From assembly GCF_000208865.1 (NCBI RefSeq), contig NC_018390.1, positions 5,412,270 to 5,476,269 of the forward strand: 64,000 bases of DNA, written 5' to 3'. A program made the position numbers and the translations under genes. The DNA is from Neospora caninum Liverpool. Its lineage: Eukaryota; Apicomplexa; Conoidasida; Eucoccidiorida; Sarcocystidae. Positions 3,467 through 58,988 of this stretch are shown here, piece after piece. Each line of letters starts with the position of its first letter. Position 1 is the stretch's first letter. The notes under the pieces are model-generated. The model saw only the letters and a list, made by a program, of their open reading frames with translations. It was not told where the DNA came from and did no database searches.

Positions 3467-3512
<46 letters not shown>

Positions 3513-4938: not shown

Positions 4939-5162
4939 CGTGGCGAGGAAACCAAAGAGAAAACAACCGAAAACAAAGAGACAGTGGAGGCAGAGCACGA
5001 AGAGAAGGGGAGCAACGGCATCAGACGGCACGAAGGAATACAATACGAAACGACCTACGCATTTATGTGAGTATGCAGACAAATACGCACCATCTACATG
5101 GGGGAGTCGCCAGACCTGCAGCGAGCTGTGTGTTGATTTCCTTGGAATGGAAAAGCCTAGCC

Positions 5163-35425: not shown

Positions 35426-36593
35426 TCAATAGAAGAACCGATGAAGACCCGAGAAGGTGAACCGGTGTTTCTGTCGGAGCAGAGCCAGTCCGGAGCCCAG
35501 AACGTCATCCACTTTCGCACAGTATTCGGGGTACTCCTTCATGAGGCGGTCGTACTCGGCCGAAGCAGCTTTTGCATGCTCGTCGATATTCGAAACCTTC
35601 TCGGACGCGTTCAGTCCGGTGCCCGCGATGCCTGCTCCGCCACGCCAACGGGAAGGAAGAGACACCACACCGCAAAACAACTGTCTCTCTCTCACGCTGT
35701 GATTCAAGTCTGACAGCGCGCATCGACGTCGACGAAATCTATACGTAGTTACACACACGTCGCACATTCCCGCCTACTATAGCCTTTGCGCGAACCTATC
35801 CGCAAGCAGTCTAGATATCTGTATCCGCCCCAGTTCAGCTGCCTGTCTCACCAGCCGCTCGACTGCCCAGTTCCATCAACTGATTCAGGTGGTCGCGGAT
35901 GTCGGCCAGTTGGTAGAAGAGATCGAAAAGGCGACGCAGGCTCTGCAGCGACGCTTGGACCTGCGACCGTGCAGGCACACACACGCAGCTCCTAAATATT
36001 TTCAAGACGCACAGAGAACTGGGCATCCTTCCGCGAAATCGGAAAGCTTCTCAGCCTCACGTCGGCGCTCCGTGGGGAGGCGACGCCAGTGTCCCACAGA
36101 CACACGAAAGACAGGTGGGCGGCAAGCACAATACAGACGCGAGGTGTTGTGTTCTAAAAAGGGACGACGAATCTAGCGACAGTTCACTGCGCGAAAAGAG
36201 TGGAGAGAGTCCTCCGCGTCTCTCTCTCCTGTGTGAGGACGAAACAGCAGGCGCCTGGGTTTGAGAACGGATGCGCAATCGCTCTCCCCCCCCCTTCCCC
36301 CTGGGCAAGGAAACAACCCCGCAGTTCGTGCGCGAAGCATTTCAGCCGGCTGGTTTCTTCGTTCGAACAGTTCTGGGGCCTCCGTGGAAAGGAGACGGTT
36401 CTACGGCACAACGGGAGCTGCCGTTGTATGTCTCTTTTCCGCGGGGACTTACATTTGCACTGTTCGCGAACGGCTGCGCTTCTTCTTCGATCACGCGCAG
36501 TTCCTCCTCCCAGAAAGGCGAGTCCAGCACGCCAGTCAAGTAGTCCACCCAGTTGGCGCCCAAGAGCTCCGTCTGGAGTCCCGAGATGCGTTT
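35426..36593 (-). CDS. Small helical protein of unknown function, 5' end not resolved
   Basis: Three exons join in frame: 36453-36593 (phase 0, GTAAGT donor), 35852-35960 (phase 1, GTGAGA donor) and 35426-35631. They encode at least 151 residues. The product looks almost wholly helical and soluble: KRISGLQTELLGANWVDYL, then SLQSLRRLFDLFYQLADIRD and HLNQLMELG, then NIDEHAKAASAEYDRLMKEY and a C-terminal basic/aromatic end (RFTFSGLHRFFY). It has no signal peptide or membrane segment and no domain I can name. The pattern recalls small coiled-coil subunits of trafficking or cytoskeletal complexes, but that is only an impression. An acceptor (CTTTGCAG) marks the start of the first listed exon. The frame stays open upstream to about 36953, but that part reads like intron. 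At least one 5' exon with the initiator ATG is therefore missing. Confidence 0.6.
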
Positions 36594-39446: not shown

Positions 39447-42400
39447 CTACGATTTCTCCTCTCTGCCGCCACTCCCGCACGATCCGGCACTCGCTCCGGA
39501 CTGGGCCAAGGGTGGAAGCCTCGGCAAGCCTCCGGCCCCCAGCAGCGACTCGCCAATTCGGTGCGGGGACTGCAGAGACTGTGTATGCGGGTTCATGTCG
39601 AACGCATGCGCAAGACGCGGATCCGGGGCAGCCTGCAGAAGCGGACGACCGTCGACAGCGCCGTCTCCGCTGCGGGCGGCTCCAAGGCCTCCGGCCACGT
39701 CCGCGGGGCCTCCCGCCGCGCCGAAGCCCCGCGAGGCGAACGGGCGGCCTCGCCCCGCCTCTGTCGGGTCGTTCGCGGACCGGGAAAGTGAAAAGTCGCT
39801 TGCGACTCCAACGCCAAAGATGGGTCTTCCGCCTGCGTTCATGTGCGCCGACGGGAGGTTCCGGCCGCCCAAGAGCGGCCCGCTGTCCCCACTGGAAGTA
39901 GGCGGGAGGTCCGAGACGAAACCGGTCGTCCTGCCTCCGAACGCGCCGTTTCCGTCCGCGAGCGGAAACCCCGGAGCTGCCGACGCCAGGTGGCTGCGAA
40001 GCGACGGATGAATGTGAGCCGGCGGAACGGGCATGTTCCCTGGCGGAGACGGAGACGGACGAGGAGCCGCCCCCGCTCCGGCCGCGCGCGCCGCGCCCCC
40101 GCTGCGCCTGCCTAGCAAGAAGTCATCCATGACAGCCCCTTGTTCGCCCGAGCCGTCTCCGTGGCGACCGCCGCCGCCCACCGCCGCACCGGTGTGCAGC
40201 GACCCACCCGACGCCGCCCACATTTCTGTCCCTCTTCGCTGGTGACTGAGCTCGTGCATCGCGTTCTCTGCGGCCACGGCGGCGCCGTTGCAGTACTGGC
40301 GGCTGAGAAGCGCAGCGGCTGCTCGAGCGGCGAGCGCCGGACCGGTGTCTCCGTCTTCCGTCCCTCGTCGGCCGTCCGTTCCCCGCGCCGCGCTTTCGAG
40401 CATTTCGCGCGCCGCCTTCTGGTGCAGGAACATGATGCTCGGGTGTGGTGGAGCCTCTGACGGCGGGTGCGGGATGTCGACGCGCACACACCACTTGTCG
40501 TTCACCAGAACCTGGCCCTCGCCTTCTCCAGGCGTCTCCGGCGGCGGCGCCCCCTCGGGCGGACTCAGGCTCTGTCCCGGTCGCGTGCCCCCAGAAGAAA
40601 GCAGCGCGGTCGAGGAGGACAACGCCGTCTCCCCGGGAGTCCCGAAACGCCGCTCGCCCACAGCGCCCTGCTGGCCCATCATGAGAAACAACGAAGGCCC
40701 AGCGCCTGCGTGGGAAGATGCCACGGAGCCGGGCTGTCCAAACGGGAGGAGGGGACTCGCCGGGGAGGACGCAGTGGGTAGCGACTTCGCGCTAGGCAAA
40801 AGCCCCGGGGATCCCTGCCAGGCTTCTCGCGGCATGCGCGACAGGAAACCGTCAGGCGCCGCGGACTGGTCCTGCGAAAAGCGCCGTGCTCCTTCGCGGA
40901 GCTCCCCGCCGCCCGGCGCGTCTCTCAACAAGACAGACCGGTCCTCTTGTCCCTGTTGCGGATCCCGTCCCAACGCAGGTCCGAGCGCTTCTTCGTTTCT
41001 TCGTCGCGTCCCTTCCCCCGCGACCCCTGTCTCCTTCGCCCCCGGCGTTGCAGGCCGGCCTTGAATCTTCTGGATCCCCGCGGAGTCCCCGCGGGCGTCG
41101 TCAAGAGACTCAAACGACATTCCGCTCGCGCCGCGATCACCGGTCTCTGGCGATGGGCTGACGGACCCGCCTCCAGAGTGGCCGTGTCCACTAACCGGCG
41201 TGCTCCCCATCATGAAACTCAGGTCCATCAAGTCGCGGATCTCTTCTTCCTGGACCTCGTTATTCGGCGGCGTCGCATCGGCTTGGCCACCCTCGGCCTC
41301 CCACAAGAAGACGAACGGGGCCAGAGGGGCGCTCCCTTCTGGGCCCCGGCGCAGGTCTTCGCGTTCCCCCACACCTTCTGGCCCGGCTCCGAGGCCTCGC
41401 CCTAACGCGTCGTCTCCACTCGGACTGACCGCCACGCCCGTCGTCCCTGGGCTGCCCCAGAGACTTGGCGCCCACGAGGGGCGACTCCCCAGCGCCGACC
41501 CCGGCCCAGACCCCGGCGCAGCTGCAGTGCCTGGGGCCCCAGGGAGTCGCAGGCTCCTCTGCGACCCGTCGAAGCGGCCTCCCGAGTCGAGACGTTCAGC
41601 CAGAGACGGCAGAGCCGGCGGCAAGAACGAGGTCGTCCCGCTCGACGGCTGCGAGAGAAGGAACTGCCGTTCTTGAGGCGTGAGGTCCTGTGCGAGCCTG
41701 GAAGCGAGTCCAGCAGTCGCCAGCAGCGGGGGCTGCGGACACGAATCCGGCGAACTGTGGAAGTCCGGGAGATGCGACGGCGGGAGAACCCCCAGGGGAC
41801 ACGGACCGAGGTTGTGAACGAGCGGGTGGTTGAACTGGAGGTCCGGAGCGCGCATGAGGCCCTGCCGCCGGCACGGAGGCGCGTCACCCACTGGGAGGCG
41901 AGAGGGGAACGCTTGCTTGTCGAATTCGCACTCGCCCAGAGCACGGGAAGCGTCTCCGAATGCGTACTTTCGCCAGGCCTGCATCCGCCACAACGACGCA
42001 GACGACTCCTCGCCGGGTGCGCACTTCCCGCTGGCCTGAAGAGGTCCGCCGCCCACATCTTCTTTGCCTTCGCTCCCGCCTCGTCCCGCGGCCTTCTCGG
42101 CCGCGCCGTGCGGCCGAGCTTCCCGCGACAGCGGCGCGTTCCCCACAGCCCGCGCAAGAGCCGGCGTTGCACACTCGAACTTTGAGAGGTCTCTGAGGGC
42201 TCTGTAAAAGTCGAGGAATGCTCGTGCGTGCGCAACTTGCTGAGGCCCTTGAGCCGTCTGCGATATCTTCTTCAGTTCCGCCGCGTCCTCGTTGAGGAGA
42301 ACGACGAGCACGGCCCGCTTCTCCACATCCCACCTGACGAAGATATCGGCTGGAAAGTGAGCGCCCAGCGAGTCCAGAAGGACTTTCCAGAAGGCGATGG

Positions 42401-45400
42401 AATTCAGCGAGGCGACGTCGGCTGTCTGTGCGTCTTGGACCCCGGCCACGGCGCCCATCGTGGCATCGGAGAAGGAAGGAATCAAAAGGTGCCCGCCCTC
42501 TCGAGCGATCAGTTCGCCTGACCGAGCGTCAAAGGCAATGTACCTGCACATTTGTCTCGCCTCCGTCTCCACTGGCGACCCGCGGGCACGAGGATCGACG
42601 TTTTCTGGCCGAGTCGCAGTGCGGAGGACGTCTCTCTGCAACTCCGAGAAATGCAGCAGCCGAACGAGCGCCCCGAGCGCAGTCTCCAGCAAACGTTCGC
42701 GGTTTCGAGTCAACGCCAACCGCCGGGCTGCGTGGACAGAGCCCCAGTACTGCCGTACTTCTTCTTCTTCTCTCACAGTCGGGAGCGGCACGGCTGTTGC
42801 GACCGCATCGGTGAGACGCCGAAGGCCTGACGCGTCTTCTTCCTTCGGTGGGAGGCGCATGAGGACCGCCAGGTCGTTCGCGAACTCTCGGTACGACCAG
42901 TCCCTCTCTGTTCGGGCTCTGCCCATCACGTCTGCCTCGCCAGCGCCTGCACGCGTCTCTCTCTGTTCTTTGCGTGCGTCCGCAATCGACCAGTCCGCCT
43001 CCTCCAGATAGCGCCTTTTTCGCCAGTCTCCCGCAAAGCCCGTTCCCGAGTCGGACGCTTCCGCCGCGAAAGCGGAAGCGTGCCCGCCTTCGCGCGAGAC
43101 ACTCTCTCCAGTGCGGCGGCCTTCCTCTGCAAAGCAGCCGGGGCCTTGGGCCTCCCGTTGGCCGAGTGCGTCCAGCAACGAGTCAAAAATCCCCGAGAAG
43201 CTCGAAGTCGCGGCAGACGCGAAGGCCGGCTGCGCGGGTTTCGGCTGCGGCGCCTTCTCTTCGCCTGCGGACGCCGGAGACAGAGCTGTCCCCTCTTCCC
43301 GCGCGGACCGCGGCTCCACAGAGAGAAGTGGCGGCTGGTCGGAAAAAACGGGAGTCCCTCCCGGCTGCTGGCCGTCTGCGGGTGATGGTTTGGCCGTTTT
43401 TTCCGCGTCTGGCGCTCCCTCTTCTTCTCTCTGTTCTTCATCTCGTGCGTCCAGCGCTCTTCCAGGAAGCGTAACAGGCGCAGGCTCGCCGGCTCTCTGC
43501 GGCTTCTCTGAAGAGAGGATAACTGGCGAGGACTTTGACGCGGGCGGGGATGCAGGCGCCTTGTGCGAAGCCGCAGCTGCCGAGCCGAGGAGGGGGGCCC
43601 GGGAGTCTGCATTTCGCTCCGGGGGCGAAGTCGAGGGCGACGAAGGCGTCAAGCGTCCGTCGGCGGCCAGGGCCGAAGGTCCGAGCGGCAAGAGCGGCGG
43701 CGACGAAGAGACGCCGCCGGCTGGCCACAGCGCAGTGCAGCGCGAGGACGAGGGCGACGCCGCCGCGGGGAGAGCAGAGTACCCCGGCACCGACCCGTCC
43801 GGGGGGCCGGTCGGATACGAAACGACCAAGTGTCGGAACTCCTTCTTGACTTGTCCCGTCCGATCCAGCATGTCCGCAGTGATTTGCGAGTAGTCCTCGA
43901 GACACACCAACTCGTTCTCTAGAGCGGCGAGCAACTCGGTGGCGAGGGGACAAACGACTCGCACGTGCTGCGTCTCGGTCTTGTCGGGGTTGTCGAATTC
44001 GAGCACCGCAGAGTGGAGGAACATGCGGGCGCACCACGAGCGGTCCACGGTGCACTTGTACAGGTCGCAGTACTTTGTGTCGCCGACGAGGGGATGGCCG
44101 ATGTGGCGGAAGTGGACCCGAATCTGGTGCGTGCGTCCCGTGTGGATGCGCACCCGACAGAAGGAGAATTCCTGCGAATACGAGAAATCCTTCTTGGTTG
44201 CCGTGGCTGCGGCGCTCACTGGACTGCCTTTGCCACTGCCTGCCGTCTTGGCGCCCGCGGCCGGCGCGGAAGCTCCAGTCCCCCTCGCGCGGTCGGAAGA
44301 GGACGACGAGGACGGAGACGCCGCGATCCGAGCGGCAACCGACATGGCCGCCTGGATCTTGCGGTGAACGGGCTGGCGGAGCCCAAACACTCGGACGACT
44401 TGATACTCCGTTAGAGCCTCGTCGCCACCTTCATCCGGGCCGACGACCTCGGAGAAGTGGGACTTGGACCGGCTCGAGTCAAAGTCGCGCGTCGCAATGG
44501 GGTGGTCGATCCGCGCATGCAGCTTGTCCAGGCGGCCGTGACAGAGCAGCAGGTACTCCTTGTGGACGAGGCGCTTGCGGAACTGCTCAAAGATCGACTC
44601 GCGTGCGCGCCGGGTCTTCGCAATCAGGAGCGAGCCGGAGGTCTCCAGGTCAGTCCGGTGGCAGAGGCCGCACTCCATCTCCTCCCACCGGCGCACGGTC
44701 TCGAGCCGAGGGTACTTCTTCATCATGTACAGGTGGAAGCTCTCGATTTTCCCACTGCTGATGAGGTCCTCGAGCGTGATGTGCGCGAGCGCTTCATCGA
44801 GCTCTTGCGGCGTCGCCACGCGGGGCACAAAGACCGGACGGTCTCTCCCAAAGCCCGAGCAGTGCCAAAACGCAGGCTTGTACAGGACCATCCACGTCGT
44901 GCCTTCCTCCACGACGTACGGGGCCGCTTTCTTGAAGACGCGGCGACTCAGGGCCTTCCCGCTGCCGTACAAGCTCTGCTCACCCACCAGGAGTTCTTCT
45001 TCTTGGCTCGACTGCAGATCGGCAGGTTCTTCCTCCTCTTCTCGGTACGCCCCCTCGTTCTCGTCCTCGCTGTCTTCGCGCTCGTCCAGAGCGACCAGCT
45101 TCCCGGGAGCGCCTGCAGCGGGCGAAGTCGGCGAGGCGCCTATCACGCCAGCGCCTTTGGCGAGTTGCATTCCCACCAGCAACGGACCCTTGCCCGAAAC
45201 GCCCTTCCCGAGACCCCGGCCTGGCCCGGAACCTTGGCTGGCCTCGCCAGCCGCTGCGCCGTCGCCGGTCGCCAGGGGACTGGTCGCGCCTTCGGGGCTC
45301 TTCGCTGGCGCCTGCGAGGCCCGCTGCGAAGCGCCCTTCTTGCCTGCCTCCTCCAACCCAGCCTGGGACGACGCGGAGCTCTCTGCAGGTGTGCTCGCAC

Positions 45401-48400
45401 TTCCCCAGCTCGAGGGACCCGACAGAGCCGGTCCTCCCGCTGAGACTGACGCAGACAGCGGCGGGAGCAGAAGACCGCCGCCGACGCCGCGCCCTGCGTT
45501 CAGAGGCTTGCCCCCATCTCTGCCAGCCGCACTCGCCGCGTCAACGCCGAGAGTGTCTCTGCTCACGCTTCCAGGCGGGGTCTCTCCCGCTGTCCCTGCG
45601 CCCGGTCCGCCCGCGGCCAAGACGCCCGCGCCAGTGCCCCACACACTCGGAGGCGACGCGACCGGCGCCGTCAGCGCCTTGCTCAAGAATGCAGACGGGA
45701 GCTGGATCTGCTGGAGGACTGTCAGCACATCGTTCTGGCGCGGAAGCGCTAACTGGGAAGCCCGCGAAAGGTGAAACACTTTCAAGAGAATCCCTGCCGC
45801 CCACGCGACGAGGGCCACCGGGTCTGTCTGGGTCGCCCCTGCGCGCTGGCCGGAGCCGAGAAGGGAACCGCCAGCGGTCGGAGACGAGAGCAAGGCCGAA
45901 GGGAAGGTCTGTTGAAGCTGCAGCGCCATAGCGATCCGCTGCTGGAAGAAGTCAAAGATCTTCCTCAGGCCCCCGTCGATGAACCGCCGACCTTGCTGGC
46001 TGTCCCCAAGCTTGCAAATCAGTCGGGGCCCCAGGAACAGCCACATCAGGACCACAGAGGCAACGCCCAGGAGTGCGGCAGACGAGACAGAGCTGTCGCC
46101 GGCCGGGTCCTTGTCCAGCGCTGCCAAGCAGTACTGCGCAACGAGTTTCCGCGTGACCAACTGGCCTCCACGTGTGACGGAAAGAAGCACAAAGAGCTCG
46201 GACGCTGCTCGGCGCCGGCATGAGAACAGCCGGTAGAATGCCGCCAGCCGCGCGTCGCTCACCGACGCCTCTTGAGCTGGCGAAGACTTCCCAGCCGCCA
46301 CGCCTGAGTAGAAGCCTTCCTTCTTGGGTTTGGGCGCGGCTGTCGCTGCGGCTCCCTTCCCCTTCTCACTTGGCAAGTCGCCCTTGCTCGCGCCCGTAGC
46401 TCCAGCCGCGCGTTTGTCGGCCTCTGCGTCTCCCGCTTGCCCGTGAATCTCCTGGTCCAGCAGCAGCTGGATCTCCTTGATGAAGATTGGACGCTGTTGC
46501 GTGGAGAAGCACGTCGAGCAGATCGCTTCCAGGGCCTCCGCGCATTCGGAGATCTCGTCGACCGCGACGCTTCCTATTCCGGCCCCCGCCAGCGCAGCCC
46601 AAGAACCCACGGACGAGCTCGCAACCCCTCCAGCTCCCGAGCCTCCCGCGCCACTCTCGCTAGTCCCCAGAGCTTCTCCCAGGCCAGGGCCCTCTGAACC
46701 TTCTTTCTTGTGGCCGCTGTCGCCGGCAGACACCGCGGCGTGCCGGTATATCTGGCTGACGCGGGACAGGAATTCATCGACGAGGGTCGCTGCAGCTTCT
46801 CGCAGCAGAGCCGGAGACACCACGTGCTGCTTGTCAGACACGCGCTGCAACAACTGCTGAGCCGCCGGGGAGATGCGGGCCTGAATGGCGCCAGGCAGCG
46901 CCACGAGGCTGAAGGAGGACCCGCGCGAGATCGTTGACGAGGCCGGCGACAGAGGCGGTGACGAAGCAGCCATGGAACCCGGCGGAGCTGACGCAGGCCA
47001 GACAACGCCAGCGCCACTCCCCAGAATGCCTGTCTCTCCAGTCGTCTCCTCGCGCTTGTCTTCATCTGCCCCAGGACCGGTCACACCCTCGTCGCTGGCT
47101 GTCTTCGCGCTGGGTGCGGGCCCAGCGGCCCTTTTCCCCTTTTTCGACCCCGCAGCCGCGACCTCCGCACCAGCCGAGGCCTCGCCGTTTCGGAGCGCCG
47201 CGGCGGACGAACTGCCTTTCGGGCCTGTACTCGGCGCCCGACCGCTCTGGCTGTTTGCCTGCTTCTCGCCCGTCTCTCTTTCGCCCTTCTCGGAAGGCGC
47301 CGCACCCGAGGTCGTCAGGCCCGTGGCGCTCCTCTGTTTTCCGTCCGCTGCCCCAGCGGCGCCTCCAGTGGCTTTTCCTGACGCTGCAGACGCCCCGGTC
47401 GCCGCCCCTTGGCGCCCCACCTCTTTCTGGGCTGGAGGCGCGAGCGTTTGAGTCGGCTTGGAGCGGTCAAGTCTGGATGCGTCCTCAGGCGGCGCCTTTT
47501 TCCCTCCCTTCCCCACCTTGGCCGTGAGCGCTGCCGCTCCCAGGTCCTCTTCTTCCTCAGAGACCGCCGCGCCGCCGGCTGCGCTCTTCTTTTTCTTCTC
47601 GCTCGCCGCAGGCGACGCAGTGGCGAGGCCTGTGCCCGTGGTCGCCGCAGAAGACACCGACTGGAGGGCCGAGCCGTCTTCTTGCGAAATCGCGTCCTTC
47701 TCCTGGTCCTTGGCTGCCGCTTTGAGGAGCGTCGTCTCTTCTCGTCTCTGGTCCTCCGCCAGTCGCGCAATGACGCTTTTGCGGTTGCTGGGGATCGCTG
47801 CCCGCGGGAGGGCCTTCTTCTGTTTCTTTTTCTTCTTCTTGCCCCCGCCGCCTTCTTCGCCTTCGCCGTCGTCCAGACTGTGCAGGTGCGACGCATACAG
47901 CACGCCCCGTTCGCGGTCGGTCGCTCCAGCCGCGCCGTCGGGAAGCAGCGTAAGAATGTCGGCGTTGCCTTCGAGCAAAAAGTCGCCACTTCCTGCGCCG
48001 GACACCGTGGACGCGAGGGGAGGCAGCGACGAGGTGGCCACGCCCTCGCCCAAGTCGAACTCGCCTGCGGCTCCGTCGCAGTGGTGACTAACCTCGTACA
48101 GGCGCACTTTCTCCAGGAGCGCGGAGCTCTCCCGGTACCGAATCGACGCGGGGCTCTCAATCAGACCCTTCTTCTGGACAATGATGACGTCGCCGCCTCG
48201 CTTGTTGATTTTTCGGATTGCGCAGCTCCACCGGCGAATGTTTTGCACCGTCCGCAAATGGCACTCTTCCAACACCAGGAAGTTGTCCGCGTCGTCCTTC
48301 GCGCTCGACGGCAGCGGGGACAGGTAGCCTCGCGCCCTCACTTGGGGCACCAGCCAGTCCAGAATGTACGTCTGGAGTTGCTGCTTCGCGTCGCACACCA

Positions 48401-51400: not shown

Positions 51401-54400
51401 TCGACTCGGCTTCTCGGCAAGATGCCTCCGGAGCGGCGGCGGCGCTGCCCACGCGATACAGCAGAGAGCGGCTTCTTCCTTCTCGACAGAGAATCTCGAC
51501 TTCGTGGCGCAGAGTTGAAATCTTGTCCACAAGCCGGTAAAGCGGGTCCTTCAACAGCGTTCCCAGCTCGTCCACCAGCAGACGCCCGTTGTCCGACAAG
51601 TGAGTGCGCGTCCAGTGAGCGATGACCTCTGCAGCCTCTCGGTGCCCAAAATGCACGGGTGACGCGAAGCTTCTCTTCCTCTCTCGCTTTTCCTTCGGGC
51701 TGCCCGCTGATCCATCAACGTCCTCCACAGACTCGGTTCCGTTCCCCTGACGTTTCTCCGCGCCAGTGTCCATCTCTCCTCTCGAATCGGGAGATATGGA
51801 CCCGGCAGAGGACACCTTCTCAAGTGTGCCGGGGCCAAACCTCCCCCCAGACAGGGCTGACGCAGCCGCTGCCGCTCCTCCCTCCTCGTCATCGCGGAAG
51901 AAGAAGGAAATCGCGACGGAGAGTTTCTCTCCTCGCAGCGCCTCCTCTTCTGCGTCGACAGCCCCTGCGTCCTCGTTCTTCGTCGTCTCCAGCGCCTTCA
52001 CCTCGGCCTGGGCGTTCTTGGACGCGTGAGCGACGCACGGCGTCACGTAGTTCGCCAGCCACTCATCGTAGAGCACCTCGCATATGGCGTGTCGGAGCTC
52101 GAGGAGCAGGATTTTCTCGAGGTACTGCATGCGTAGGACAAACCAGTAGTGGTTTTCGACCATCTCCGGCGAGTTTGCCGAAAAAACAACTGCCTTCTCG
52201 ACGGCGACTTCGAAGATCCACTTGATCACAGGAGCGAGGACCGTGTACCGTCTCTCTTCAGCCAGCGATCGCGGCCTCCAGGCCGACTCGAAACTCTCGT
52301 ACAGCATGTTGTTGTCACCTTCGAAGAACGGCGCGCCGCCTGGCACGCCGGAGACACTTGAGGGGACAGCAGAGAGGCCGCTGGCGGGGCTGGGATCCAA
52401 AACGAATCCAGCCCCGGTGGCTGCCCCGCCCGTTCCGCCCAACCGAGAAGAGCCGACCGACTCTGTCTTGCCACCGCCTGAAGCCGGTGGGATCCCGGGC
52501 TTCTGTTCGCCTTCCGCAACGTCTCGCTTTTCAGGCATCTCCACGTGTCGCTCACTTCCCACAGGGAACGCAGGCGTCCCCCCGGCCGCCCCACCCGTTC
52601 CGGCGCCGGCCGCGGGGGACGAACACGCCGACGGGGGTGCTGCAGCCACCCCATTCGAGTTGTTCGACAGATTGATCCACGGTCGCTTGATTTCCGCCTC
52701 TGTCACGCCGAGATCGTAGAGCGTCCGGTAGTAGAGCCACGGATTGAGCTCCAAGAGGTCCCCCGAGAGATCCACGTCTCCAGCCTGGACCGCGTCGATG
52801 TAGTCCTCCGCGATGTAGACTGCCCCCGCGCAGAAGAAGTCCCGATGGCACTTCCACTCAGTGAAGTCTACCTTGCTGCTGAGCCTCTCGACGCGTCCGT
52901 CTCCGATTCGGAACCAGGGTCCGTCCTCCTCGGGGCGCAGAAGAAGGTAATGCGAGGTCTGGGCGCCACACCCGTCTCCACGGCTATCCCCTTCGCGAAT
53001 GAAAAGCGCAAAGAGAGAAAACCACTTCTCTTGGTTCCCCCCACTGCCCGAACTCGCGCCGTTGCTCGACCCCCCGACAGGCGTCGGTCCCGCGCCCTGC
53101 GGGGGCGTCTGGCCCGAGCCGGGTGGGACCTGAGGGGACGCCTGGCTGCCCTTGCCCGCATCGCCCTTGCCTGTGGCGCTCTTCCCACTGTCTCCTTGAG
53201 TGCTCGCCACGTCGTCTTCATCACTGATTGCGAGTTCTTCGTCTTCCGTCATGTCCGACTCCTCTTCCTGCGCGTCGCGCGACACTTTATTCCCCTTTCT
53301 CGATTGTTGCAGCTTCTTCCGCAGCCGCCGTCGCTGTTTCTCCCGATCCACCACGCCCGTCGTCGAGCCGCTCCCTTTCTCGCCGCCCGTCCCTTTCGGA
53401 TTGCTGTCGGTATGTCCCGCGTTCTCGTTGCGCTGCTGCCGGAGCTGGAGAAGTTTGTGGGCGTCCAGCCGCAACGGTGCGTCGAAAAGTTCGCCCTTCT
53501 TGCACTGCTTCACCGACTGCAGGTAGACAAAAAGGACTTCCGGGAAGTGCTGAAGGACCTTGCCGCAGGACTCCAACGCCTTCTGCAGAGAGTGAACATG
53601 CTTGCATCGCGTGAACCCCGCAGAGATATCCGGCACGCCGTCTGCATTCAGAAGCCCAGTCGAGCGGTCCGAGGAGGAAAAGAGCTCATGGCACGTCGCC
53701 TCGAGATGGTCGCAGGACGTGAAGGCGACGCCATCCACGTCGGTCCAAACCCCCGCCGAAGGACCCCCCGGGACGCCGCCCGGCGGCAAGGGAAGGCTCT
53801 CCTCGCCGTCTTCCGCCCGGCCTCCAAAGGACGAGAAGGCAGGAAACGTCGAACCTGCAGCAGCCGCCACCGCGCGCGCTTGGTACTCGTGGACCTGGTG
53901 CGTTTCCAACTTGGCTTTGGCCAGCTCTCGCATCAAGAGAGAAAAGAGCTCGGTGTGGACCTTGACCAGCGGGTCGGGGACGTCCATCTTTTGCACGTCG
54001 TGCATGTGCAGGGCCTTCAGCACCGCCTTGATGTTCGGCTGCGGGGGCATGTCTGCCATCGCCTCGGGGTAGCGGTCCATGAGGTCGCAGCACAGACACG
54101 TGTCCCTCTCCAGCTTCATTTGTTTAAGAAGCAAGTCGGGGTCCTCGCCGCCGCTGGTGCCTCTGCTGTTCCACCCGTCTTCATCGCCCTTCCTTCCGGG
54201 CCCCTCGCTCGGTGGCCCAGCGCCGGCCGGCACGAAGGGCGGACTCGACGCTGCCGCGTGGTACGCAGTCGTCTTGCATCGGCAGCAGCACGTGCAACGC
54301 TTGCAGAGCGTGCAGAAGGCGAGGCGCGAGGCAGCCGCAGAGAGAGGCGGGGGTGCTGGCCTCCGCGAGGGCGAATTCTTGGGGAACAGCTCCGCTCCAT

Positions 54401-57400
54401 ACCACTTCCATATTTCACTGGCACAGATTTCCTTTCGGCTCGACGACGAGGAGGCAGCCAAATGCTGGAGACGGCGACACGCAACCGTCACGGGCCACAG
54501 CTGCATGTACGCGAAGGTCTGCTGGAGGGCACCGATGAGCGAGCCGTCGGCGAACGGGGGAATTTGGGCAGCGAGCGACGGGTCCTGGGCCAGTTGCTCC
54601 GCTGTCGGGGACTTGATGAAATCGCTCTTCCACATGTAGATGTGTTTCCGGAACTCACAGAGGTGGAAGAGACAGTGGACAAAGAGCGCCACGTAGTCCG
54701 CGCCGAGCGACGAATCTAGCGTGGGCACAATAGGATCGACGTACGACAACAGAGAAGCAGTGGGGGTCTTCAGTCTCGGCAAACCTCCAGCGAGTGCCGT
54801 GGAATGGGGTCCCGCGACAAGCATGTTGTTTGCATTCGCCGCACTCGTCGCGTTGTTCGCGTTCGGGCCACTTGTCTGCATGGACGCGCTTGCACCGGTG
54901 AGCGCGGCCGCCGCCGCACTGCAGGAGGAGGAAACTTCTTCCAGGGCCTTGGCAGCTCTCTCCGGTATGTACTCCCAAATCCGGTGGGGTCTGTACACCG
55001 GCCCACGCGACCAGAGCGAGGCAAACGGCGGCTCAGCCTTACCACGGACCAAGACCGTCCCGTCTTCGTCCATGAACCCGGACTGCTTGTTGAGGCGTGC
55101 ATGGCTGATCATCTTCTGCCACCCTCGACTCGTCGCCTCGTTGCTGAAGCTCCAGTGCGCCCACGAGGTCACCGACTGTTTCGGGTCCTTGAAATTCACC
55201 ACCGTCAACTCGAAACGGACATTCGGGAAGATCCAGTCGTCCGGGTACCAGTCTTGCCGGATGGCTTCCAGAAACACACTCAAGTGACTCGCTTCCGAGT
55301 CGGTCCCCGTCGTGCCGCGCGGATGGAGCAGCAGGCGATACACGAAGCCGCGACAGTAACCCTGGGTGGGACTCTCCAGGTCGTTTTGCGTCTTCGCGAC
55401 TTTCCAGAAACTGCGAACGTAGAAATCAACTGACTGACACTCCTTCCCAGCTCCCCCGCGATCTCGTGCCGATGACTGGTGGCTGCCGCCCCCGCCCCCG
55501 CCCCCGCCCGGGCCTCCTCCCTTCTTTCCCGCGCCGCCGGGGCCTCCTCCGGGGCCTCCTCCAGGGCCTCCTCCGGGGCCTCCTCCGGGGCCGCCGCCCT
55601 TTCCTGGGCCAGCGCCTCCAGGCCCCCCTCCTTCCGCGCCGCTGCCGCCCGGTGGAGAGTGAGAGAAAGATCCTCCAATTGAAGGCCCCGACGACGCGTT
55701 ACTCGGAAGTGCTCCTGCGCCCGCCGAAACGCCCGAGGCAGGACTGACGGCGAGGGCAGAAGACGGCTGAGTGATAGCTCCACCCGCTGCCCTCACCATG
55801 GCACCGGCTGGCGCACATTTTGCAACAGCACACGATGGCAAATGGGAACAAGGGGGATCCCTTGGAAGGACTGGAAGACCATTGCTACTCGCACTGCTGA
55901 CATTCCCACCGCCTCCGTGTCCACGCGAACAGCCCCCTTCCTCGCCTTCACGTTTTGGGAAATGCAGAGGGACGCCTGCAACTGTGCCTGCTCCGGATGT
56001 GACGCCACCGCCTCCCTCGCCTCCCGAGGTAATCTGGCAGCGACGAGCAGCAGGACTACACGTCTCTTCTTCGCTTGCCGTCGCGTGTTTTTCTCTCTCT
56101 CTTACACGCGCGGAAAGAGAGGACACACCACTCACCTCCTTCGGCGCCTCATTTCGCCCTCCACAGTTGTCCCCTTGACGGCCTCCCCTCTCTGAATCCT
56201 CCGCCCATACGTCGGCGCTCCACGACCCTCCAGCTTTGTTTCTGTTGGCCGGAGCTAAATGGGGGGCGACGGGAAGGGGAAGGTGCGCAAAATTCTCTGC
56301 ACTGTGTCTACGTCTCTCTTTGACATGCGCGTCGTCCTCGTCCTCACTTCGCTCCGGAAATGGGCTACTGTCCTCTTGACCGGGCGAGAAACTCGTGCGA
56401 TGCTTCCCTCTCTTTCCCAGGAACGCGTCGTTGTGTTTCTCCATGCGCTCCCTAGGCGTCTCTTCACCCCGCTTCTTCAATGGCCAGCTGCCTTTCTCGC
56501 ACGCCAGCGCGAGTTCCTGTACCGGCGCCGAACTTCTGGATCGTGAATGCAAGCAGCAGCGCGGGGCATCGACCGGTGCTGTTCCCTCAAACAGGGTCGC
56601 CGAATTTGTGAGAAGCCTCGTCCCTCCGCCAGGATTTCTACTTCGAACAAGACAGGAGCACCCTGACGCACCAGCCGCAGCGGAAAGCGCTGAGGCCGAC
56701 CCCGGCGCTGGGGCACTCGAGAAACCGGCTGCGTTCGAAAGCTTCGTGCCTTCGGAGCACGCACAGGAGAGACCACAGTGTCCGACTTGGTTCAGTACAT
56801 CCCGGTCGCCCTCCGCCCTCGCAGCCGAAGTCGGAAGCGCTCGGCATCGAGGCGCCGTGGACACGCAGAGCGGGGCCAAATGCTCATGGCAACACCGGTA
56901 ACAAACTGCAGGCATGTCGCCGCCCTCGTCTGTCTTTGAAACCGCCAACGCACGAGACGCTGCGGCAGTGGCGAGGCCGGAAGACCCATGCACCAGCACT
57001 TGATTTCCAACTTGTTCGGCAATTCCTGTCGTCTCCGCAACGACTTGGCCCACGTGCACTGCGTCGCTTGGCGAAGGCAAAGACGCAAAAAGAGCAGGGA
57101 ATGGCCTCCCTGCTCCTGTGGAAGAAGCCTCCACCAGACACGATCTGCCGCGCCGGAGTCCGGGCCCGCAGTCATCGGTGCCTCCAGCAGACGCAGTCAA
57201 GGCAGAAGCCGAAGCAGCCGGTTCGCCGTACGACGACCCGCGCACGAGGAGTGGTGCGGTGTGCGAGCCTACCCCACTCTCACCGGGACCTGTCGACTTC
57301 CCGGGAGACGAGGCAGAGCCGTTTGCCCCATGTTCACAGGCACGGTGGAGGCAACATGCGCCGGGCTCACGTGAGCCTTGAGGGAGCGCGGGTTGTAAAA

Positions 57401-58988
57401 TGGCGCTGGATAACGGAGACAGCACGAATCCCCGACTCTTCTGCGACATGGGGGCCACTCCAGACGACAGAGAGCCTTCAAGAACACCTGACCCTGAAGG
57501 GTTTTTCGAGGTCGCCGAAATCGCTGCGGTCGCAGAGCGTCCTCGCCCCCGACTGCTTCGCGTACTGCTTCCTCTGCCTCCGCGTAAGCTTCCCGTTCCG
57601 CCTGAAGGCCATGCAAACGGATGAGGCTGGGGAGGGGGGGTGCTGGCCGTTCCAATGTGTCTGCCGCGAGTCTCCCCTCCCTCCTGCTCCAGTTCGGAGA
57701 ACGCGCGTCCCTTCTGACTGTCTCCCGCCTCGGCGCACGGCTGCGGGTCGCCTGTCTCCGCCACCTTCACGCTTGCCACCCCCCACGGGACTGCCTCTCC
57801 CAGCTGGGCAGTCCCTGTGAGACCGCCGGAGACGAGGGGCTCGTGCACGCATCCGGCTAGCCGAGCCACGATCTGACCGGGCTCGGGAGCTCCGGTCGCC
57901 CCTCCTGCTGTCGGGTGAACAGCGGGACAACCGAGGCAGGCAGGGGACAGAGGTAAAACGGCCTGAGCGGGTGACAAGGTGGTATTCACCGCATGAGCCC
58001 CTCCACTGGACGCAGGAAGAAGAAAGAGGTGATCGGAAAGACGGACAGCAGAGTTCTTCGTTCCCTCCGCCGCTCCGATGGCGGGGCTCCCAGTTACGAG
58101 GCTCGACCCACTTCCGCCCGTGCCCCCGGAATGGAGAGTACACGTCTCGTCGTCTGAGAGGGATCGAGGGTCCCCTCCCTGCCTCATGGCCTCCAGCAAG
58201 TACCCACGTGCAGACCGAGCAAGATACGTCGATATCGCTTCCCTGGAGAACGTAGCCGCAGGGAAACCTGAGACGAGACAGCCTTCGCCTCCAGCCGCTC
58301 TGTCCGCCATCGGAAGAGAAGCGTCGCCAGAGAGATGGTCCTGTCGCCCCTTTCGCAAGGCAGAGCCGACAAGTAAAGAGGCAGGGCCCCCGTTTTCTCC
58401 TGCGCAGCTCGCCGCTCCCGGCCAGAGCACTCCGTACACCATGTCCGAACCCGGCGGAAGACACGAAATCGCCTCTAAATTCTTCTCCGTCAGCGCGTAG
58501 AAAGCTGCCTCCGGAATGAGAGTGGTGCCACTGTGGGTGCATTCTGGCGACCGCCCAAAAGCCGATGAGGAACGTGACGATCGGCGAGACGGAGGGTGCG
58601 CTGGACAGGACGAACAAGGCGAGAGCGAACCGGTAAAAGATGAAGGCCACGGAGAGAGATACGGAGGTTCCGACCGCGTTGACGAGGGAGGAGGGGGGAC
58701 AGCAGCGTCTGACACGGCAGGAAGAAGTGGGAGCGGAAGCGGAAGACTCTTCAGTGTGCGACTCGGCGTCGCTGAAATCTTCGGGGAATCAACGGAAGAG
58801 TAACAGAATGCCTTGTCCACAGGAGTTGCAGGCGCCTTCGCCTCACATGCAGTGCGGAGACGCGAGGAGCGGCGTCCAGAAGCCGAAGAAAGAACTGCTG
58901 ACGAAGAAACAAAAGGAGATCCATGAGGTGCTGAAGCAGGACCATCCAGGCCTGCGCCCCCGGGAGGGGCGGACACCCCGTTTCCCAT
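39447..58988 (-). CDS. Giant protein: MATH domain + USP7-like pseudo-deubiquitinase + RluA-type pseudouridine synthase
   Basis: One uninterrupted ORF of about 6,513 residues. The first in-frame ATG gives MGNGVS, an N-myristoylation consensus. After about 1,100 disordered residues and a Gly-Pro tract (about 1109-1169) comes a MATH domain (about 1187-1322; FWKVAKT...SWAHWSFSNEA). A USP7-like peptidase fold with long insertions follows (about 1410-2080). The helix ADYVALFVHCLFHLCEFRKH matches the USP Cys box but has Asp1431 where the nucleophile Cys belongs and Ser for the oxyanion Asn. The sheet VLFVYLQSVK and the His box SHYLLLRP (His2013) are present. Residues about 3500-3555 could be a degenerate ubiquitin-like part. 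Residues about 4690-5050 are an RluA-type pseudouridine synthase with HRTDLETSG (Asp4780), RTHQIRVHFRHIGHPLVGD and CARMFLHS. The rest is Ala/Gly/Ser/Pro-rich. The likely roles are ubiquitin/substrate docking and RNA uridine isomerisation. The upstream start and hidden introns need transcript support. Confidence 0.88.
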   Translation of the reverse strand: MGNGVSAPPGGAGLDGPASAPHGSPFVSSSAVLSSASGRRSSRLRTACEAKAPATPVDKAFCYSSVDSPKISATPSRTLKSLPLPLPLLPAVSDAAVPPPPSSTRSEPPYLSPWPSSFTGSLSPCSSCPAHPPSRRSSRSSSAFGRSPECTHSGTTLIPEAAFYALTEKNLEAISCLPPGSDMVYGVLWPGAASCAGENGGPASLLVGSALRKGRQDHLSGDASLPMADRAAGGEGCLVSGFPAATFSREAISTYLARSARGYLLEAMRQGGDPRSLSDDETCTLHSGGTGGSGSSLVTGSPAIGAAEGTKNSAVRLSDHLFLLPASSGGAHAVNTTLSPAQAVLPLSPACLGCPAVHPTAGGATGAPEPGQIVARLAGCVHEPLVSGGLTGTAQLGEAVPWGVASVKVAETGDPQPCAEAGDSQKGRAFSELEQEGGETRGRHIGTASTPPPQPHPFAWPSGGTGSLRGGRGSSTRSSRGRGRSATAAISATSKNPSGSGVLEGSLSSGVAPMSQKSRGFVLSPLSSAILQPALPQGSREPGACCLHRACEHGANGSASSPGKSTGPGESGVGSHTAPLLVRGSSYGEPAASASALTASAGGTDDCGPGLRRGRSCLVEASSTGAGRPFPALFASLPSPSDAVHVGQVVAETTGIAEQVGNQVLVHGSSGLATAAASRALAVSKTDEGGDMPAVCYRCCHEHLAPLCVSTAPRCRALPTSAARAEGDRDVLNQVGHCGLSCACSEGTKLSNAAGFSSAPAPGSASALSAAAGASGCSCLVRSRNPGGGTRLLTNSATLFEGTAPVDAPRCCLHSRSRSSAPVQELALACEKGSWPLKKRGEETPRERMEKHNDAFLGKRGKHRTSFSPGQEDSSPFPERSEDEDDAHVKERRRHSAENFAHLPLPVAPHLAPANRNKAGGSWSADVWAEDSERGGRQGDNCGGRNEAPKEVSGVSSLSARVREREKHATASEEETCSPAARRCQITSGGEGGGGVTSGAGTVAGVPLHFPKREGEEGGCSRGHGGGGNVSSASSNGLPVLPRDPPCSHLPSCAVAKCAPAGAMVRAAGGAITQPSSALAVSPASGVSAGAGALPSNASSGPSIGGSFSHSPPGGSGAEGGGPGGAGPGKGGGPGGGPGGGPGGGPGGGPGGAGKKGGGPGGGGGGGGSHQSSARDRGGAGKECQSVDFYVRSFWKVAKTQNDLESPTQGYCRGFVYRLLLHPRGTTGTDSEASHLSVFLEAIRQDWYPDDWIFPNVRFELTVVNFKDPKQSVTSWAHWSFSNEATSRGWQKMISHARLNKQSGFMDEDGTVLVRGKAEPPFASLWSRGPVYRPHRIWEYIPERAAKALEEVSSSCSAAAAALTGASASMQTSGPNANNATSAANANNMLVAGPHSTALAGGLPRLKTPTASLLSYVDPIVPTLDSSLGADYVALFVHCLFHLCEFRKHIYMWKSDFIKSPTAEQLAQDPSLAAQIPPFADGSLIGALQQTFAYMQLWPVTVACRRLQHLAASSSSSRKEICASEIWKWYGAELFPKNSPSRRPAPPPLSAAASRLAFCTLCKRCTCCCRCKTTAYHAAASSPPFVPAGAGPPSEGPGRKGDEDGWNSRGTSGGEDPDLLLKQMKLERDTCLCCDLMDRYPEAMADMPPQPNIKAVLKALHMHDVQKMDVPDPLVKVHTELFSLLMRELAKAKLETHQVHEYQARAVAAAAGSTFPAFSSFGGRAEDGEESLPLPPGGVPGGPSAGVWTDVDGVAFTSCDHLEATCHELFSSSDRSTGLLNADGVPDISAGFTRCKHVHSLQKALESCGKVLQHFPEVLFVYLQSVKQCKKGELFDAPLRLDAHKLLQLRQQRNENAGHTDSNPKGTGGEKGSGSTTGVVDREKQRRRLRKKLQQSRKGNKVSRDAQEEESDMTEDEELAISDEDDVASTQGDSGKSATGKGDAGKGSQASPQVPPGSGQTPPQGAGPTPVGGSSNGASSGSGGNQEKWFSLFALFIREGDSRGDGCGAQTSHYLLLRPEEDGPWFRIGDGRVERLSSKVDFTEWKCHRDFFCAGAVYIAEDYIDAVQAGDVDLSGDLLELNPWLYYRTLYDLGVTEAEIKRPWINLSNNSNGVAAAPPSACSSPAAGAGTGGAAGGTPAFPVGSERHVEMPEKRDVAEGEQKPGIPPASGGGKTESVGSSRLGGTGGAATGAGFVLDPSPASGLSAVPSSVSGVPGGAPFFEGDNNMLYESFESAWRPRSLAEERRYTVLAPVIKWIFEVAVEKAVVFSANSPEMVENHYWFVLRMQYLEKILLLELRHAICEVLYDEWLANYVTPCVAHASKNAQAEVKALETTKNEDAGAVDAEEEALRGEKLSVAISFFFRDDEEGGAAAAASALSGGRFGPGTLEKVSSAGSISPDSRGEMDTGAEKRQGNGTESVEDVDGSAGSPKEKRERKRSFASPVHFGHREAAEVIAHWTRTHLSDNGRLLVDELGTLLKDPLYRLVDKISTLRHEVEILCREGRSRSLLYRVGSAAAAPEASCREAESTGKQSPVDPSVSVSASRKEGQAEAGEKGEASTEDVAEPEALAELRQAVTERLTDLWACCRACVEESEEILSKYTVERLRTCSAAEPEADGGGRASEANIEDASAVAGSGGDSRGWEDARSRGTAGDEREGRCGGDVASAAPNEAPCPLRPSVPASDPSTEFVDSSAFSCRSAAGALDHLGHEYDLPVGETVELVAFLAEAFFLPDFRTMRRFLRDRRHVVFERIRPHELIRAYLALARPEVHLPSFLQDHGYNVTWCEAAFQPEDASAIWGDASVPAVVAVQSASRGFQLSRAVSSVLLHLLVTALACGPASGRAKPERRSLEGEAEPKEKDAGEASEREKHGTAARKSGASGRGSDGGSGAASKKKGKPKKGVKEEEEKKAKSPDESTGVESSHAALAKQEPTGDILPSETADPLWGEDIRKSVAADVSAILRAMEHDCPDLASPTAAMPPTGASSQSDSSSGGQASAGGSPEASTPGAPHVPSPPETSAAGGAQQAVSGAETPDYRSPLAMVHKIPLTLPLSAPGDRSAQASGAGGKCGKKKGRVGGSGGGSSSSPGDPTQVVPVLDRVLPRLNFEQRVAAAADPGVFLLCPAAVSSSLSSFAPSPRASCALASPTGGSGTPAYADIPSDAACAAKSGAANAGSFASAFPNSCPAGANVAVLERELLGLGDAGVVPFPACGSIATRSLNGAGNASLAGSSVCRRIRYHGLEVGLLLAEDLKGLEGFSIEDNLPIRARLLVRKSVLTPTGASSLAASSAGPSPLTPAVSSPSSASPSPSGVSALHVANANAATQTPSAVSEPLTVQRLYWAFRRLLHAQIEERDVGARDGAAGGSSSAGTGKAKNPATAKAYEQQLTLLNQQSERELWWLPTPRDAFLLYALRPDPDPTRKGRRRFVYMDPLDDLEIYADPKRQLADATAPDITILLVAAPQRCCSEASAWLKGSAFSSAVANAAASSVPGVVLPPPALTFPLEDADEFPLLVFKWFSADSVDLFCVGALVCDAKQQLQTYILDWLVPQVRARGYLSPLPSSAKDDADNFLVLEECHLRTVQNIRRWSCAIRKINKRGGDVIIVQKKGLIESPASIRYRESSALLEKVRLYEVSHHCDGAAGEFDLGEGVATSSLPPLASTVSGAGSGDFLLEGNADILTLLPDGAAGATDRERGVLYASHLHSLDDGEGEEGGGGKKKKKKQKKALPRAAIPSNRKSVIARLAEDQRREETTLLKAAAKDQEKDAISQEDGSALQSVSSAATTGTGLATASPAASEKKKKSAAGGAAVSEEEEDLGAAALTAKVGKGGKKAPPEDASRLDRSKPTQTLAPPAQKEVGRQGAATGASAASGKATGGAAGAADGKQRSATGLTTSGAAPSEKGERETGEKQANSQSGRAPSTGPKGSSSAAALRNGEASAGAEVAAAGSKKGKRAAGPAPSAKTASDEGVTGPGADEDKREETTGETGILGSGAGVVWPASAPPGSMAASSPPLSPASSTISRGSSFSLVALPGAIQARISPAAQQLLQRVSDKQHVVSPALLREAAATLVDEFLSRVSQIYRHAAVSAGDSGHKKEGSEGPGLGEALGTSESGAGGSGAGGVASSSVGSWAALAGAGIGSVAVDEISECAEALEAICSTCFSTQQRPIFIKEIQLLLDQEIHGQAGDAEADKRAAGATGASKGDLPSEKGKGAAATAAPKPKKEGFYSGVAAGKSSPAQEASVSDARLAAFYRLFSCRRRAASELFVLLSVTRGGQLVTRKLVAQYCLAALDKDPAGDSSVSSAALLGVASVVLMWLFLGPRLICKLGDSQQGRRFIDGGLRKIFDFFQQRIAMALQLQQTFPSALLSSPTAGGSLLGSGQRAGATQTDPVALVAWAAGILLKVFHLSRASQLALPRQNDVLTVLQQIQLPSAFLSKALTAPVASPPSVWGTGAGVLAAGGPGAGTAGETPPGSVSRDTLGVDAASAAGRDGGKPLNAGRGVGGGLLLPPLSASVSAGGPALSGPSSWGSASTPAESSASSQAGLEEAGKKGASQRASQAPAKSPEGATSPLATGDGAAAGEASQGSGPGRGLGKGVSGKGPLLVGMQLAKGAGVIGASPTSPAAGAPGKLVALDEREDSEDENEGAYREEEEEPADLQSSQEEELLVGEQSLYGSGKALSRRVFKKAAPYVVEEGTTWMVLYKPAFWHCSGFGRDRPVFVPRVATPQELDEALAHITLEDLISSGKIESFHLYMMKKYPRLETVRRWEEMECGLCHRTDLETSGSLLIAKTRRARESIFEQFRKRLVHKEYLLLCHGRLDKLHARIDHPIATRDFDSSRSKSHFSEVVGPDEGGDEALTEYQVVRVFGLRQPVHRKIQAAMSVAARIAASPSSSSSSDRARGTGASAPAAGAKTAGSGKGSPVSAAATATKKDFSYSQEFSFCRVRIHTGRTHQIRVHFRHIGHPLVGDTKYCDLYKCTVDRSWCARMFLHSAVLEFDNPDKTETQHVRVVCPLATELLAALENELVCLEDYSQITADMLDRTGQVKKEFRHLVVSYPTGPPDGSVPGYSALPAAASPSSSRCTALWPAGGVSSSPPLLPLGPSALAADGRLTPSSPSTSPPERNADSRAPLLGSAAAASHKAPASPPASKSSPVILSSEKPQRAGEPAPVTLPGRALDARDEEQREEEGAPDAEKTAKPSPADGQQPGGTPVFSDQPPLLSVEPRSAREEGTALSPASAGEEKAPQPKPAQPAFASAATSSFSGIFDSLLDALGQREAQGPGCFAEEGRRTGESVSREGGHASAFAAEASDSGTGFAGDWRKRRYLEEADWSIADARKEQRETRAGAGEADVMGRARTERDWSYREFANDLAVLMRLPPKEEDASGLRRLTDAVATAVPLPTVREEEEVRQYWGSVHAARRLALTRNRERLLETALGALVRLLHFSELQRDVLRTATRPENVDPRARGSPVETEARQMCRYIAFDARSGELIAREGGHLLIPSFSDATMGAVAGVQDAQTADVASLNSIAFWKVLLDSLGAHFPADIFVRWDVEKRAVLVVLLNEDAAELKKISQTAQGPQQVAHARAFLDFYRALRDLSKFECATPALARAVGNAPLSREARPHGAAEKAAGRGGSEGKEDVGGGPLQASGKCAPGEESSASLWRMQAWRKYAFGDASRALGECEFDKQAFPSRLPVGDAPPCRRQGLMRAPDLQFNHPLVHNLGPCPLGVLPPSHLPDFHSSPDSCPQPPLLATAGLASRLAQDLTPQERQFLLSQPSSGTTSFLPPALPSLAERLDSGGRFDGSQRSLRLPGAPGTAAAPGSGPGSALGSRPSWAPSLWGSPGTTGVAVSPSGDDALGRGLGAGPEGVGEREDLRRGPEGSAPLAPFVFLWEAEGGQADATPPNNEVQEEEIRDLMDLSFMMGSTPVSGHGHSGGGSVSPSPETGDRGASGMSFESLDDARGDSAGIQKIQGRPATPGAKETGVAGEGTRRRNEEALGPALGRDPQQGQEDRSVLLRDAPGGGELREGARRFSQDQSAAPDGFLSRMPREAWQGSPGLLPSAKSLPTASSPASPLLPFGQPGSVASSHAGAGPSLFLMMGQQGAVGERRFGTPGETALSSSTALLSSGGTRPGQSLSPPEGAPPPETPGEGEGQVLVNDKWCVRVDIPHPPSEAPPHPSIMFLHQKAAREMLESAARGTDGRRGTEDGDTGPALAARAAAALLSRQYCNGAAVAAENAMHELSHQRRGTEMWAASGGSLHTGAAVGGGGRHGDGSGEQGAVMDDFLLGRRSGGAARAAGAGAAPRPSPSPPGNMPVPPAHIHPSLRSHLASAAPGFPLADGNGAFGGRTTGFVSDLPPTSSGDSGPLLGGRNLPSAHMNAGGRPIFGVGVASDFSLSRSANDPTEAGRGRPFASRGFGAAGGPADVAGGLGAARSGDGAVDGRPLLQAAPDPRLAHAFDMNPHTQSLQSPHRIGESLLGAGGLPRLPPLAQSGASAGSCGSGGREEKS
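55479..55660 (-). repeat. Glycine/proline-rich coding repeat (GGPGGG units)
   Basis: The coding strand of the giant gene repeats near-identical 12-base units encoding Gly-Pro-Gly-Gly, giving a flexible tract of about 60 residues immediately before the MATH domain. It is likely to be length-polymorphic and hard to assemble. Confidence 0.85.

Follow-up and report, generated by a model that had tools for sequence, protein, structure and literature searches.

The 64,000-nucleotide stretch of Neospora caninum Liverpool contig NC_018390.1 analysed here (the window) carries on its minus strand a giant open reading frame (ORF), running from ATG to TAG at positions 39447..58988 and predicted to encode a protein of ~6,513 amino acids (aa) whose chain passes from a MATH domain through a USP/UCH-like domain and a putative region of the USP7 ICP0-binding type to an RluA-type pseudouridine synthase domain. 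Read from an upstream TTG, which we took as residue 1 throughout (the first ATG being residue 15), the frame covers 39447-59030 on the minus strand and 6,527 codons, with 6,542 open codons from stop to stop, against a longest open run of 558 codons in 200 first-order Markov replicates; the remaining two minus-strand frames hold 95 and 88 stops. The first ATG lies at 58988, exactly the end given in a preliminary description of this DNA, and it is likely to be the start of the giant protein, as suggested by the Toxoplasma and Besnoitia relatives, both of which open with an identical MGNGVSAP.

Five database proteins were found to align along the giant chain, and together with the window protein (P0001) they form the six-sequence set used below: Toxoplasma P0002 (6535 aa), Besnoitia P0003 (BESB_018670, 6719 aa), Selenidium P0004, and two Cryptosporidium proteins, P0005 and P0006, the latter from C. 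hominis. The searches covered proteins of 0.55-1.75 times the query length with shared words, a range in which split orthologues are invisible; a first query (853 candidates scored) gave two relatives, a synthase-region query (4,609 candidates) gave three, newly adding P0004, and a MATH-region query (37 candidates) gave five, newly adding P0005 and P0006. Full-length identity to the window protein is 75% for Toxoplasma and 63% for Besnoitia, and by alignment the same series of MATH, USP, ICP0-binding-like and synthase parts is present in P0002-P0006. The Selenidium protein derives from contig GHVN01002047, an accession which, like the style of its ORF name, we take to be of the assembled-transcriptome type, so that its MATH and synthase parts would share one transcript. 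In the excerpt of PMC10304595 that was retrieved, GHVN01 accessions are listed under Selenidium pygospionis.

These comparisons bear on whether the frame could be an artefact of annotation or assembly, that is, two adjacent genes joined by a frame open by chance. Conservation is poor in parts of the linkers, and the joined frame in N. caninum is known from genomic DNA alone, which leaves in-frame introns possible. Chance openness is at odds with the length of the run relative to the Markov replicates, and identity to Toxoplasma stays between 0.43 and 1.00 in all 100-residue bins through to the C-terminus, as would be expected of a frame that codes throughout; the alignment of all five relatives along the frame, and above all that of the Selenidium protein with its apparent transcriptome origin, speaks strongly against the artefact, which we regard as extremely improbable. 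As all five carry the parts in one chain, the separate-gene-orthologue test favours a real fusion for these relatives, and the locus is apparently one gene of a single exon encoding one very long protein. The preliminary description had reported an unbroken frame of ~19.5 kb and considered its translation as one chain; the frame stands, and the single chain is supported in Toxoplasma, Besnoitia, Selenidium and Cryptosporidium within a search confined to long proteins, where separate orthologues would not have been seen.

The MATH domain occupies residues 1205-1326 (55053..55418, minus strand) and was recognised by Pfam MATH_2 with an E-value (E) of 7.9e-12, above the cut-off, as the preliminary description had anticipated. 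It is the most conserved part of the giant protein: over residues 1200-1350, 151/151 residues are identical in Toxoplasma and Besnoitia, and identity remains at 0.65-0.68 in Selenidium and Cryptosporidium. An exon-by-exon profile search of the genome (this and the other genome-wide profile searches covered 57.5 Mb in 14 contigs) matched MATH_2 only once, at the giant gene; the corresponding search with PF00917 matched nowhere, controls included, and is uninformative.

The MATH domain is followed by a USP/UCH-like domain with insertions at residues 1425-2105 (52716..54758, minus strand), identified with Pfam UCH and hhalign. UCH was unreported at E<=1 in a scan of a 2500-aa piece, and an NCBIfam scan of the same long pieces (2,000-2,500 aa) gave no match for the MATH/USP part; a 911-aa MATH-UCH piece matched UCH at E 4.2e-5 (23.7 bits). 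UCH matches all five members of the alignment scanned (P0001-P0005), with a best E of 9.1e-8, and exceeds its cut-off of 23.9 bits in the Selenidium piece (33.2 bits, profile positions 10-241) and in the Cryptosporidium P0005 piece (33.9 bits). The box that should hold the catalytic Cys of a USP reads GADYVALFVHCLFHLCEFRKHIYMW in the window protein, CADYL... in Selenidium and NVDFV... in Cryptosporidium; Asp stands at the Cys position in 6/6 sequences (residue 1445 of the window protein, codon 54696..54698, minus strand), and Cys is not kept. When aligned by hhalign to a profile built on four USP domains of the N. caninum genome, the Cys box falls in register with Asp 1445 facing Cys, and among single targets the loci L025 and L026 also set Asp 1445 on Cys; L023 aligns instead at the His box, and L024 at a strand between the boxes. 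The observed hhalign scores were reached by 0/100 column-shuffled decoys for the Cys half and 0/100 for the His half.

The rest of the putative active site is better preserved, and one could suppose the protein to be a USP7-type deubiquitinase that still cuts through an atypical active site and has a pseudouridine synthase in addition. His 2027, at the USP catalytic His place (52950..52952, minus strand), and Asp 2044, in the box matching the USP 'FDDD' (52899..52901, minus strand), are invariant in 6/6 sequences, within a His box that ranks as one of the best-conserved parts. The residue preceding D2044 varies between G, I and C; the choice of the catalytic Asp within the USP7 FDDD is an assumption on our part, and the first Asp of that box is possibly the one missing here. 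With the nucleophile replaced by Asp in all six sequences, and with that Asp placed by hhalign on the Cys of USPs from the same genome, no active ubiquitin peptidase is expected, and an active deubiquitinase is very unlikely. We infer that the USP-like part is a pseudo-peptidase that would not cut ubiquitin. The earlier claim of a USP-type peptidase fold thus stands as homology and fails as a peptidase. Loss of cutting in the giant protein need not deprive the cell of the activity, since locus L026, at C11:2681500-2687000 on the contig of the giant gene, encodes a USP with intact NHGATCY, GHYY and FDDD boxes, which we take to be like those of USP7.

Further along the chain, a putative USP7 ICP0-binding, ubiquitin-like (UBL)-like region was identified with the USP7_ICP0_bdg profile at residues ~3400-3625 (48156..48833, minus strand). 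The profile matches 5/5 members of its alignment at E<=10 (best 3.3e-8); P0006 is in neither this alignment nor that of the UCH scan. The whole Selenidium protein is narrowly above the cut-off (27.7 vs 27 bits). A genome search with USP7_C2 gave no match and, lacking a positive control, is uninformative.

The RluA-type pseudouridine synthase domain spans residues 4700-5045 (43896..44933, minus strand) and is matched by Pfam, TIGR00005 and RluC. PseudoU_synth_2 was found at residues 4715-4976 with E 7.4e-18 in the Pfam scan of long pieces, PF00849 on the synthase piece gave E 2.1e-19 (70.7 bits vs a cut-off of 26.8), and the solved RluC structure matches the domain at E 5.8e-16. The motif HRTDLETSG, whose Asp is catalytic in the RluA family (the roles of the other motifs being likewise those of that family), is at residues 4791-4799, with the codon of Asp 4794 at 44649..44651, and RTHQIRVHF is at residues 4966-4974, its RTHQIR (4966-4971) being encoded by 44118..44135, both on the minus strand. 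A synthase core bearing these two motifs had been read from the letters in the preliminary description and is borne out; its estimate of ~2,700 residues between the USP-like and synthase parts comes near the ~2,600 measured. H4791, R4792, D4794, S4798, G4799, Y4826, R4966, H4968, R4971 and H4973 are identical in P0001-P0004, and the identity of the synthase domain to that of the window protein is 0.97 in Toxoplasma and 0.93 in Besnoitia. A recent copy of another synthase of the genome was considered as the source of the domain and rejected, the ORFs of the other five PF00849 loci giving only partial blastp matches (best by E-value 42% over 90 aa).

In both Cryptosporidium proteins D4794 is replaced by Gly and RTHQIR by NVNKIR, with G4799, Tyr 4826 and Arg 4971 retained. 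Identity between P0001 and P0005 is 0.65 for MATH, 0.38 for the Cys box, 0.62 for the His box, 0.43 for the UBL-like region and 0.26 for the synthase, the corresponding values between P0001 and Selenidium being 0.68, 0.36, 0.63, 0.52 and 0.50; between P0005 and P0006 the synthase is the least alike of six parts (0.73 vs 0.86-0.99). Judged by these alignments, the drift in Cryptosporidium is mainly in the synthase domain. Pfam found no synthase in whole P0005 or P0006, the synthase region there being known by alignment, by blastp (P0005 against the Selenidium synthase domain, two-sequence comparison, best piece E 3e-13) and by the name under which P0005 was submitted.

Two other accounts of the protein can be weighed on this pattern. 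It might be a plain RNA-modifying enzyme in which only the synthase is needed and the USP7-derived parts are structural padding, as would suit the synthase of coccidia and Selenidium, which has every motif residue tested, and the high identity of the synthase in Toxoplasma and Besnoitia. Against this, it is the MATH domain that is most conserved, in every one of the 151 residues across three coccidian genera, and Cryptosporidium keeps the MATH and USP parts while its synthase has lost catalytic residues; we think this account rather unlikely. Conversely, the protein might serve purely as a scaffold, its two enzyme domains being relics that the cell could do without and the coccidian synthase, too, being inactive on RNA. 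Its persistence in Cryptosporidium after loss of the synthase catalytic residues would agree with such a scaffold, which is nonetheless unlikely given that coccidia and Selenidium retain intact catalytic motifs (Asp, Tyr and Arg), as would not be expected of a relic.

The combination that we consider probable, if only modestly so, is that of a USP7-derived architecture, a dead peptidase and a working coccidian synthase taken together, and a number of results weigh against it. The window's own USP7_ICP0_bdg match (residues 3523-3624) is weak (E 0.036, 13.9 bits vs a cut-off of 27), and a genome-wide search with this profile gave 0 matches, the giant locus included, no control having matched either. 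The UCH match of the window protein lies 0.2 bits below the cut-off of 23.9 and covers the His half of the model only, and the giant locus was not among the 28 matches of the genome-wide UCH profile search. Probabilities in the hhalign comparisons were low (2-11%); in searches of PDB sequences, no TRAF chain came up for the MATH piece and no USP chain for the MATH-UCH and UBL profiles. The AlphaFold models were unusable (mean pLDDT 30.7 for MATH-UCH and 34.1 for the UBL region), and the USP and UBL parts are therefore assigned from sequence profiles. The synthase scored 111.7 bits with TIGR00005, below the whole-protein cut-off of 192.7 (E 3.9e-32 in two stretches). Among the relatives, Pfam recognised only MATH in whole P0005 and no MATH, UCH or synthase in whole P0006, the case for which is one of alignment (its MATH domain is 0.65 identical to that of the window protein and 0.99 to that of P0005). 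The long proteins searched yielded no relative from Plasmodium, Eimeria or Cystoisospora, which is not evidence of absence. A separate phmmer search of residues 1-2500 against the PDB had as its sole match a serotonin-receptor chain (E 0.017) over the Gly-rich residues 1121-1186, and this was set aside.

The remainder of the giant ORF is less readily named. The N-terminus MGNGVS (58971..58988, minus strand), common to the three coccidian proteins, is a candidate N-myristoylation motif under what we take to be the MGxxxS/T rule. It is followed by a low-complexity, poorly conserved N-terminal extension (residues ~21-1199, 55434..58970, minus strand); over residues 15-1199 identity is 0.64 to Toxoplasma and 0.42 to Besnoitia, and the Selenidium and Cryptosporidium proteins align over 30 to 105 residues only. 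Immediately before the MATH domain, a Gly/Pro-rich coding stretch contains a 12-bp tandem repeat in 4.7 copies (55537..55592, no strand assigned). Residues 4040-4440 (45711..46913, minus strand), with identities of 0.82, 0.73, 0.24, 0.25 and 0.25 to P0002-P0006 respectively, received no Pfam name in the scan of the giant protein and may possibly constitute an unnamed domain. The C-terminal tail (residues 5061-6527, 39450..43850, minus strand) is 0.70 identical to Toxoplasma, 0.57 to Besnoitia and 0.23-0.25 to the other three in the aligned part. On the plus strand, a 724-aa open frame at 52545-54719 runs antisense to the USP-like part, with further long frames at 44457-45774 and 47409-48755; all three are probably shadows of the minus-strand coding frame.

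Elsewhere in the window, minus-strand frames encode an RNase PH domain (8611-9810; PF01138, E 3.7e-14), a 1,232-aa protein with an AP2 domain near its end (16663-20358; E 1.3e-8) and a DUF6827 protein (36345-37091; PF20715, E 7.7e-11). A second RNA-modification gene is indicated at 24378-25781, also on the minus strand, by a frame that partially matches GCD14, a subunit of a tRNA methyltransferase (PF08704, E 1.3e-8), and a 32-bp repeat unit is present in 3.2 copies (98%) at 23668-23769.

Set beside known systems, the giant protein shares with USP7/HAUSP, whose architecture is MATH-UCH-ICP0 binding/UBL, the order MATH, UCH-like and, more tentatively, USP7_ICP0_bdg-like; it differs in the Asp at the catalytic Cys position in 6/6 sequences, in thousands of extra residues and in the added pseudouridine synthase. 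With RluA/RluC it shares the Asp of HRxDxxTSG, the Tyr of KxY and RTHQIR; unlike them, its synthase is interrupted by an insertion, lies inside a 6.5-kaa chain and is degenerate in the two Cryptosporidium proteins. Toxoplasma P0002 (annotated 'RNA pseudouridine synthase superfamily protein') and Besnoitia P0003 are full-length relatives by alignment, with no essential difference seen. P0005 resembles the window protein in its MATH and USP-like parts and in a recognisable synthase region, and differs in the Gly at the synthase Asp position, in the degraded RTHQIR and in having no counterpart to most of the coccidian N-terminal extension. Its database name is 'large having a MATH plus UBC hydrolase plus type I pseurousyn plus hexapeptide'; the fusion is old, and at least one public record already names it. 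The T. gondii id 312370, which has the same annotation name as P0002, was considered as its equivalent and is doubted, 312xxx ids being presumably on another chromosome. The ids PF3D7_0511500 and PFE0570w are, we presume, those of a protein likewise named 'RNA pseudouridylate synthase'.

According to the retrieved part of a 2024 article (PMC10993292), the largest P. vivax protein contains a pseudouridylate synthase domain and a TRAF-like region, a likeness to the giant protein by description only. Together with the name given to P0005, this speaks against the preliminary description's remark that no family was known to add a pseudouridine synthase to the MATH and USP parts. PVX_080660 is named 'RNA pseudouridylate synthase' in the excerpt seen of PMC5552340, and excerpts of three further articles report, for piggyBac mutants of PF3D7_0511500/PFE0570w, 57 percent attenuation (PMC2952599), a 'Hyper' class in gametocyte development (PMC10269797) and passage through heat-response screens (PMC5082630); that PVX_080660 and PF3D7_0511500 are the same protein as the largest P. 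vivax one is a guess. In the open-licence PMC literature we found nothing combining Toxoplasma, MATH domain and USP7, nothing combining pseudouridine synthase, MATH domain and fusion, and nothing combining MATH, pseudouridine synthase and Cryptosporidium. In the same literature, no mention of pseudouridine was found in the retrieved text of apicomplexan ubiquitin/MATH articles among the matches listed, and myristoyl, Toxoplasma and pseudouridine synthase together retrieved only work that was unrelated by title and abstract. To the extent of these partial texts, the pseudo-peptidase state in 6/6 sequences and the degeneracy of the Cryptosporidium synthase seem to be unreported there.

We have high confidence in the architecture and in the missing Cys, as read from sequence. 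How the protein works is a more tentative matter. It may derive from a USP7-type deubiquitinase (MATH, USP, ICP0-binding/UBL-like) with an RluA-type synthase on its C-terminal side; the MATH domain would bind short peptides in partner proteins, and the pseudo-USP would perhaps still bind ubiquitin or a ubiquitin-like fold without cutting it. The scaffold could thereby keep the synthase attached to one fixed partner, either a ribonucleoprotein or a component linked to translation, and uridine would be converted to pseudouridine there; the coccidian proteins may possibly be membrane-anchored through an N-myristoyl group. In Cryptosporidium the scaffold would work without the RNA chemistry and would have outlived it. 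The docking mechanism taken alone is conjectural, and we would put it clearly short of an even chance. Conservation is greatest in MATH, and it is the synthase that decays in Cryptosporidium, a pattern suggestive of docking as the function under constraint. That the protein is an ancestral USP7-derived scaffold of Apicomplexa, whose deubiquitinase died before coccidia, gregarine and Cryptosporidium split and whose synthase died later in Cryptosporidium, with docking as the conserved job and RNA modification as an optional output, is a possibility we place somewhat under even.

If this is true, the tie put forward in the preliminary description would be a physical one, joining ubiquitin-pathway docking modules to RNA modification in each apicomplexan genus retrieved, and the stepwise death of enzymes would be readable from the sequences. 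That 151 residues of the MATH region are identical across the three coccidian genera points to a partner under unusual constraint. The findings also warn against annotating these giant proteins as active deubiquitinases, or those of Cryptosporidium as active pseudouridine synthases.

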